A program made the translations under genes and the position numbers. DNA of 64,000 nucleotides from Pseudomonas sp. M30-35. Its GTDB lineage: Bacteria; Pseudomonadota; Gammaproteobacteria; Pseudomonadales; Pseudomonadaceae. Location: contig NZ_CP020892.1 of assembly GCF_002163625.1 (NCBI RefSeq), forward strand, positions 3,038,001-3,102,000. The letters are read 5' to 3'. This document shows, piece by piece, positions 1 through 1,950 of this stretch. The stretch's first letter is position 1; each line of letters starts with the position of its first letter. The notes beneath the pieces were generated by a model. The model was not told where the DNA came from, made no database searches, and saw only the letters and a list, made by a program, of their open reading frames with translations.

Positions 1-859
1 TATGAAGGCCAAACAAGGCCGACACTCCGCCGTGGGTGACATGTACACCGCCACCGGCAAGACCGGCGAGCGGGAAGCCCAAGGCAACGACTGACTCGCC
101 GAGATCACAACCAGAACCTTGCTTGAACGAAACAGCCTTCAGACCTGGACATTCCAGTACTCTTAACAGCGCAAAATCATTACTGCGGTCGACTACCACT
201 GGCTCTGCACGGTAGCGCCCATCAAAAGAAGCGATGTGAATTTCCTGCATGCCTTCAATAACATGGGCACAGGTCAAAATGTGATGGGTTGAGACAGCGA
301 AACCGGTGCCCGTTGCACCACTACCTGTTCGACCCGATTCCGAAGGCATCGTGCGGCCCTTGGGGTGAGCCTCATCCATATCGAGCCCAATTCTACGGCC
401 CAGCGCCGCCAAACCGTATGCAGAGCCTTCAGCCAAGGCGCGAAACTTCCATAGACTATCACGCAGGTAATACTCACCGATGATGAGCGCAGACTCGCCG
501 TTGTCCTGTAGATCAAGCTTGCACTCGATCTGACCATCAATTTGCAGATGCAGGGTTTTAAGCGCGTTAACCGGGCCTGCGGCTGAGTAACTGTAGACAA
601 CTAAAAGCACGCGCTCAGCACCGTCCGGAAGCGCGGCCAAGTTGAGGCTGCAACCGACCTTTTCCGGCCCCCCGCTCCATTCCATCCAGCCTTGCGGAGT
701 TTGGAATAGCGCTGCCGGGCCTTTCGGCTGTCGCTTCTCATTAACCGGCAATATCGCAACGGCAGCGTACTCGCCAAACGCGTTGGCATCGCTGCACTCC
801 AGAGTCCACTCGCTCTGAGATCCCGATATTGCGGTGTTTGCGCCAGGCGCTAGCGCCAT
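1..859 (-). CDS. TerD domain fused to trypsin/HtrA-like protease (partial, runs off left edge)
   Basis: An open frame on the minus strand starts with ATG at 859, is preceded by an in-frame TAA and a GGAGG ribosome site, and stays open for 286 codons to base 1. Residues 15-162 look like a TerD domain: the C-terminal block (IIGEYYLRDSLWKFRALAEG, then GLAALGRRIGL) matches the usual TerD ending. The acidic calcium-binding loop typical of TerD (GDN...GDDE) is absent, replaced by WSGGPEKVG. After a short Gly/Ser/Thr linker (about 168-183) comes a chymotrypsin-fold protease: GTGFAVS, catalytic His199 in LTCAHV and Asp228 in NDFALLRV. The catalytic Ser motif should lie just beyond the window. It is 95 bp downstream of the ATP-grasp gene on the same strand, probably one operon. 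What it cleaves is unknown. The fold calls rest on motifs only. Confidence 0.75.
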   Translation of the reverse strand, partial: MALAPGANTAISGSQSEWTLECSDANAFGEYAAVAILPVNEKRQPKGPAALFQTPQGWMEWSGGPEKVGCSLNLAALPDGAERVLLVVYSYSAAGPVNALKTLHLQIDGQIECKLDLQDNGESALIIGEYYLRDSLWKFRALAEGSAYGLAALGRRIGLDMDEAHPKGRTMPSESGRTGSGATGTGFAVSTHHILTCAHVIEGMQEIHIASFDGRYRAEPVVVDRSNDFALLRVLECPGLKAVSFKQGSGCDLGESVVALGFPLAGLAGGGVHVTHGGVSALFGLH

Positions 860-954
860 CATTCTTTACGCCCTCCCTGACCGCTCATGCACTCTCCCTG
901 ATGCTCACTGGACCAACCGCAACAATATACGATCATACCGATAGCCATTCAGAA

Positions 955-1950
955 TCACACCGGCAAGGGTATAGCAACTGTGACGGCCTTCACCCGGACA
1001 TTCGCGAGCCAATCACTTTCGGGCTCTTTGAAACCCAATCTACGGGCAGCGAAGATGCCTGGCAAGTTGATACCAGTCGCGCGGGTATAACCGATCCCGC
1101 CTGAGTAGCGCGGGTTTATTTCCAATAAATGTGGCTTGCCGTCCGCGTCATCTCGCGTCTGGATATTGACGATACCGTCGCAGCCAAAGTGCTGAGCAGC
1201 CTTGACCGCCAACTCAACAGCCGCACCCTCGCGCTCGAATGTCTGATAAAGGCCTTTCTTGCGCCGCCCGACAAACGCAACAGTACGACCCGCTTCACAA
1301 ACCATGTCCACCGAACACTCGCTACCCGCCATGTACGGCATCACCAACATCGCAGGCTTGGTCTCAGTTGCAGCGTATGCCTGCAGATAAGTATCGAAAT
1401 TGACTTCACGCACACCTTTGGCAAAGCAGCTGAACGCATCTGCTTGCGGGTTGAAGCGCCAAAAGCCCTCGCCATAGATCCCGACAACAGGCTTGATGCA
1501 GACCTCACCCTGCGCCGCAAGGGTTGCATAGGCCGTGGCCAATTCCAGAGCATCAGTTACCGTGATTGCCGGCACACAATCCAAGCCGGCTTGCTCAGCC
1601 TGCGCCGTGAACAAGCTCTTGTCGTCGACGCAATTGAGGGCCTCAATCGACAGGCCACCGGTCACCAAAGTCAGGCCAGCAGCGTCAAATTGAGCACGTG
1701 CAGACTCAATCAAGCGGCCCTCGCGCCCAGCCAGTATGACTTTGATGTTGTTCTCCAGAGCGGTTTGCAGTACCCACTCGATCCGCTCTTGGCTGTCCGC
1801 TGGCTCGAAAAGGCTGACGTCAGCGAGCCCAGTAATTTCCGGCCGGGCCTGTCCGTGGGAGGCGAAGATTTTCACACCCGCAGGCAATGCCTCGCGCGCA
1901 CCTATGATGATGTCGCGTTGACTGGACTGCCCTTCGAGTAACCAAATCAT
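955..1950 (-). CDS. ATP-grasp family enzyme
   Basis: A 331-residue protein with ATP-grasp architecture: an N-terminal Rossmann-like pre-grasp half, a nucleotide-binding middle with CIKPVVGIYGEG, and the magnesium-ligand motif LLEINPRYSGGIG near residue 275-285. Such enzymes use ATP to join a carboxylate to an amine or thiol through an acyl-phosphate; the substrate here cannot be read. AGGAG precedes the ATG at 1950. It is followed on the same strand by the TerD-protease gene. ATP-grasp proteins are known companions of TerD proteins in Ter-type stress gene clusters, where a nucleoside- or peptide-like product has been proposed. Family call firm, specific role inferred. Confidence 0.85.
   Translation of the reverse strand: MIWLLEGQSSQRDIIIGAREALPAGVKIFASHGQARPEITGLADVSLFEPADSQERIEWVLQTALENNIKVILAGREGRLIESARAQFDAAGLTLVTGGLSIEALNCVDDKSLFTAQAEQAGLDCVPAITVTDALELATAYATLAAQGEVCIKPVVGIYGEGFWRFNPQADAFSCFAKGVREVNFDTYLQAYAATETKPAMLVMPYMAGSECSVDMVCEAGRTVAFVGRRKKGLYQTFEREGAAVELAVKAAQHFGCDGIVNIQTRDDADGKPHLLEINPRYSGGIGYTRATGINLPGIFAARRLGFKEPESDWLANVRVKAVTVAIPLPV

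Follow-up and report, generated by a model that had tools for sequence, protein, structure and literature searches.

The left end of the analysed DNA raises the question of what a trypsin-like protease does when it is joined to a TerD-type domain. The window, that is, the whole stretch of 64,000 nucleotides from Pseudomonas sp. M30-35 (G000:C1:3038001-3102000), opens within a gene for such a fusion, which the original prediction had read as a sensor that activates proteolysis, possibly in a stress or phage response. Published work treats the way in which the Ter operon acts as unsettled, and a conserved, optional protease with a putative TerD adaptor offers a handle on what this operon does to the cell.

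Architecture and conservation of the fusion protein

The fusion gene was found on the minus strand as an open reading frame (862..2) that is open past the left end of the window. Its 5' part (1..862, minus strand), assigned from the reading frame and Pfam, comprises the first 287 of 379 codons. The full gene (G000:C1:3037723-3038862, minus strand) encodes a protein of 379 amino acids, with its 3' end 277 bases outside the window. The start reads ATGATG and is preceded by a GGAGGG stretch. Since the first Met is the start in relatives of the protein, two of the catalytic residues are numbered His200 and Asp229, rather than His199 and Asp228 as originally predicted.

Three parts were distinguished in the protein, all encoded on the minus strand: a TerD-type N-terminal domain (residues 1-160; 383..862), a flexible linker (residues 161-181; 320..382), with pLDDT values below 50 at residues 169-180 and a pN/pS of 0.20-0.56 in three comparisons, and an S1C/HtrA-type protease domain (residues 182-347), of which residues 182-287 are encoded in the window (1..319) and the remainder outside it. 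Pfam reported Trypsin_2 at residues 185-318 (E 3.7e-25) and TerD (PF02342) at residues 72-154 (E 1.2e-6), the latter with 28.5 bits, above the curated cut-off of 25.3, and spanning the C-terminal half of the profile only. In line with these matches, the predicted structure had a TerD fold in the N-terminal domain and an S1C/HtrA-type fold in the protease domain. The fold lists obtained with a second structure model contained HtrA-type and other S1 protease chains, and the TerD domain was absent from them. The predicted fusion was thus borne out by Pfam hits for both domains and by the predicted fold; that the N-terminal half is not TerD, named beforehand as the result that would overturn the prediction, was contradicted by the Pfam score and the TerD fold.

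The catalytic triad is intact and the architecture complete. His200 (263..265, minus strand), Asp229 (176..178, minus strand) and Ser304 were invariant in 97 of 97 aligned proteins, namely the window's protein and 96 others at 40-84% identity. As foreseen, the serine lies beyond the window; however, it is found 17 codons after the last codon in the window, within GSSGSP (from residue 302), and not 40-60 codons on within GNSGGP or GDSGGP. A missing serine, the other outcome named beforehand as overturning the prediction, is thereby contradicted as well. These counts replace those of a pattern-based check, rejected as too narrow, which had flagged two of 80 loci, reading NDIALMRI and SNAHV, and two of 127 proteins.

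Comparison with three relatives gave a pN/pS of 0.14-0.25 for the whole gene, and of 0.07-0.16 for the protease domain, which had the lowest value of all parts in every one of the three comparisons; of the two domains, TerD is the faster-evolving one. The gene is therefore under purifying selection, and the invariant triad together with the low pN/pS indicates a maintained and probably active protease.

Place of the gene in the Ter operon

First in the gene run is ATPgrasp_Ter (955..1950, minus strand; Pfam), an ATP-grasp enzyme belonging to the Ter biosynthetic module, followed by TerD-protease, PRTase_2-TRSP, a HAD-IIB-like gene (a weak match without a Pfam hit), StiP-PELOTA, a C-C bond lyase, a HAD-IB phosphatase and six ter genes arranged in the order terZABCDE. 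All genes beyond ATPgrasp_Ter and the fusion lie left of the window. This co-directional set of ATP-grasp, PRTase, HAD, StiP, C-C lyase and ter genes makes up a Ter biosynthetic operon, and TerD-protease is thus a gene of this known stress operon, as the expected stress setting implied. According to its Pfam description, StiP is a cysteine protease; fused here to a PELOTA RNA-binding domain (L006:14691-15785, minus strand, left of the window), it constitutes a second candidate protease, of a different kind, in the same operon. No Rfam match at gathering scores was detected in 20 kb of this locus.

The search for similar fusions and their neighbours that the original prediction had proposed returned 368 relatives (369 proteins in a profile search with the relatives' alignment), with both Pfam domains in all 120 of those listed. 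Within up to 10 kb of flank on each side, another Ter-operon gene was present in all 80 named loci, the 80 top-ranking ones among 161 relatives. There, a PRTase gene was the direct downstream neighbour in 74, an ATP-grasp gene the upstream one in 68 and both were found in 66, some absent neighbours being contig ends. The hosts of the 80 loci were mostly Pseudomonas, the others being Burkholderia, Stutzerimonas, Oceanobacter, Marinobacterium, Ventosimonas, Parachitinimonas, Enterobacillus, Fluviicoccus and Thiothrix. Plasmids carry the gene as well, including the tellurite plasmid pRBL16: among 72,556 plasmid records, 154 gave a match, which in 127 of these covered 80% or more of the protein. 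The suggested phage role found no backing, as tblastn of the fusion protein against 50,697 phage records gave no match and PADLOC matches were confined to the protease domain.

Presence counts of the fusion were obtained in three draws of genomes and are lower bounds from thin sampling, with 4-5 candidates scored per genome. In a genus-level sample of 398 genomes, the fusion was present in at least 43 and StiP in 53, and all 43 also had StiP. Class-wide, six of 369 genomes had a match, including the window's own; one of the other five (G635) was a Sel1-repeat protease without a TerD match. In the phylum-wide draw of 398 genomes, the fusion was detected in the window's own genome only.

Ten of the 53 genomes with StiP had no protease gene. 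Nine of them gave no tblastn trace and one retained a remnant of residues 156-230, and the stretches around StiP contained the operon minus the fusion gene in all ten. Three of the nine traceless cases and the remnant case also had no ATP-grasp gene or were missing most of it, so that the absence in these four is not a loss of the fusion gene alone. The remnant (L157:12277-12501, minus strand) stands with an ATP-grasp remnant (residues 265-329) in an otherwise complete Ter gene set. In a tree of four operon proteins (88 rows: the window, 77 of the 80 named loci and the ten without the gene), the protease-less members fell in at least five places among members with the gene. A Fitch count gave seven changes, a figure that depends on rooting the tree at Thiothrix and on a cluster with short branches (L151-L155 with L076), and at least five places is the safer statement. 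The Fisher p value computed in the same analysis takes no account of relatedness. Because the fusion is missing from ten of 53 StiP genomes that are scattered in the operon tree, TerD-protease is an accessory part of the Ter operon, and the pattern fits its repeated loss.

Two genomes of one other genus (G486 and G617) have a TerD-protease at 33-39% identity beside bioC/bioD-like genes, named by eye from sequence; the 16-18 kb of surrounding sequence contained no match to the Ter operon. Canonical TerD genes occur elsewhere in both; in G617 the distance is about 27 kb, within one contig. PRTase_2 gave no match in G617, and in G486 it lies on another contig than the fusion. These two loci demonstrate that TerD-protease need not be linked to the operon, and G617, which gave no PRTase_2 match, that it need not come with the metabolite module.

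Some further loci were recorded. The same two genomes have TerD domains within reading frames of 1144 and 1128 codons (G486:C6:15407-15916 and G617:C126:2986-3495), perhaps another TerD fusion. G723 has two equal-scoring TerD-protease copies on two contigs (L170, L171), one of them followed by a truncated PRTase gene, and in G492 (L161) a TerD-protease match with two in-frame stops lies near a PRTase gene.

Domain features and proposed role

The absence of the usual acidic calcium loop, claimed for the TerD-type domain, was upheld by a profile-profile alignment with Klebsiella TerD, whose ligand residue numbers were taken from PMC8779313 and whose side-chain binders were assigned by residue type. 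The ligand positions aligned to G30, Y32, two gaps, K68 and V69, and none of the six was kept in this best alignment, which suggests that the calcium ligands of canonical TerD were lost; E31, adjacent to an aligned ligand column and acidic in 80 of 97 rows, would be one retained acidic residue if the alignment were shifted by one column. The closest kin of the domain was the N-terminal half of TerA, TerZ giving a weak profile match only (E 4e-4), and TerD core residues were conserved among the fusion relatives.

The protease domain has kin of a different make-up. The class-level match in G635 is a Sel1-repeat protein (L169:225-2207) with a similar protease and C-terminal tail, and a search with its protease part returned 4595 relatives. 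Among the 120 of these that were listed (P0131-P0250), 98 had Sel1 (PF08238) and none had TerD; other partners were what we take to be, for some of the Pfam numbers, TPR, ankyrin, peptidoglycan-binding, TonB and WG-repeat families. The tail of the window's protein has a predicted helix and strand at residues 360-377 and no Pfam match. A C-terminal motif [VILF]x[VIL]xC was present in 113 of the 120 listed sister proteases, and the form W-x-[VIL]-[ED]-[ACV] in 125 of 127 TerD fusions. Protease and tail thus appear, from these comparisons, to be a module that is also fused to Sel1 and other repeats, a relation newly noted here. Since TerD occupies the place of the binding repeats in the sister proteases, it has the appearance of an adaptor that was swapped in. 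A crude measure of hydrophobicity showed an N-terminal hydrophobic stretch in 72 of the 120 sister proteases and in none of 83 TerD fusions, which points to a cytosolic location of the TerD version.

In view of these features, the reading we prefer, and to which we give about an even chance, is that of a cytosolic, Ter-docked and stress-gated protease of the HtrA-like (S1C) type, contributed by the Ter stress operon as an optional member. Its TerD-type domain, a TerA-N-like version without the usual calcium ligands, would replace the repeat or binding domains of the sister proteases and would either attach the protease to the assembly of Ter proteins or bind the nucleoside-like product of the operon, thereby placing and gating proteolysis under stress. 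Docking on Ter proteins is putative, being suggested by domain kinship, and a docking or adaptor role would fit the comparative evidence at least as well as a sensor that activates proteolysis. The loci outside the operon in G486 and G617 count against this reading, as does the sufficiency of terC and terD for tellurite resistance in E. coli (PMC8779313). This reading overlaps in part with the next two.

A tentative alternative, possible though not one we would expect, is an allosteric sensor protease, in which the nucleoside-like compound made by the neighbouring biosynthetic genes would bind to TerD, and this binding would itself switch the protease on. TerD domains have been proposed as receptors of specialised nucleotide derivatives (PMC7159879, PMC7824862), in a Ter system described as comprising biosynthesis, ligand-binding and membrane parts (PMC7824862), and the location between ATP-grasp and PRTase genes in most named loci is in keeping with this. 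However, ligand binding by TerD is itself a proposal, and G617 has the fusion and no PRTase_2 match.

We consider it unlikely that the protease is gated by thiol or metalloid chemistry, with Cys198 (269..271, minus strand), two residues before the catalytic His, and Cys252 (107..109, minus strand) being oxidised or metalloid-bound under stress. Both residues are lineage-specific: Cys198 is found in 93 and Cys252 in 88 of 97 fusions. Neither position holds a cysteine in any of 122 sister proteases (120 listed, P0129 and P0130, the last itself a TerD fusion outside the operon), which have N in 120 and S in two at the former. Judged from these alignments, most Ter-linked members have gained the cysteine two residues before the catalytic His, which is likewise newly noted here, and the pair may act as a redox or metalloid switch. 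In favour of this reading, the two cysteines are jointly missing in four rows, the most divergent ones, which belong to Thiothrix (three) and G723; on the other hand, five of 97 rows have Cys198 without Cys252, four have neither, and the substitutions could reflect a packing change. The combined version, a thiol-gated cytosolic HtrA-like protease in which TerD would dock to the Ter assembly and the cysteine pair would sense oxidant or metalloid stress, seems quite unlikely; if it were true, the Ter operon would have a proteolytic output arm.

Just as improbable in our estimation is a general quality-control protease of the cytosol, in which TerD would do no more than aid folding or solubility: the predicted HtrA-like fold, the faster evolution of the TerD domain and the occurrence of the fusion outside the operon agree with it, but the tight operon linkage in 80 loci and the conserved TerD core residues argue for a Ter-specific role. 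Finally, a fusion created by sequencing error, or a decaying gene, is refuted by full-length relatives in many species and by purifying selection, and its probability is negligible.

Comparison with known systems

The architecture is already in print, which corrects the impression that such a fusion was unexpected. The table of a survey from 2008, on the serine proteases of prokaryotes, contains TerD-Tryp for Pseudomonas syringae (YP_273108.1) and Tryp-(Sel1)6 for other organisms, and the survey calls TerD-Tryp not functionally characterised (PMC2605481). The P. syringae protein shares the TerD N-terminal and trypsin-like C-terminal parts, and the relatives found here likewise occur in many Pseudomonas species; in the accessible part of the survey it is a single example without operon context (PMC2605481). 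Among the top-ranked results of our literature searches, no functional study of a TerD-protease fusion was found.

Regarding tellurite, a requirement of the fusion for resistance was considered and set aside, as terC and terD suffice for resistance in E. coli according to the accessible text of the pRBL16 study (PMC8779313). The gene combinations described there are those of terZABCDE, and the words "protease", "peptidase" and "trypsin" are absent from its main text (PMC8779313).

Compared with HtrA, DegP and DegS, the window's protein has no PDZ domain among its Pfam matches up to E 0.1 and no N-terminal hydrophobic stretch, carrying TerD instead, and has Cys in place of Asn two residues before the catalytic His. 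The NCBIfam HtrA models remained below their curated cut-offs, the best being degP_htrA_DO with 76.9 bits vs. 416.2. The Sel1- and repeat-fused S1C proteases are alike in protease domain and tail, and differ by the array of repeats in their N-terminal part, which is often (72 of 120) preceded by a hydrophobic leader.

The Ter stress operon with its biosynthetic module was reportedly described by Anantharaman, Iyer and Aravind in 2012, as we take from citing papers and Pfam descriptions. That operon and the window's share ATPgrasp_Ter, PRTase_2-TRSP, HAD, StiP-PELOTA, the C-C lyase, TerB, TerC and TerD, and the window's operon has TerD-protease in addition.
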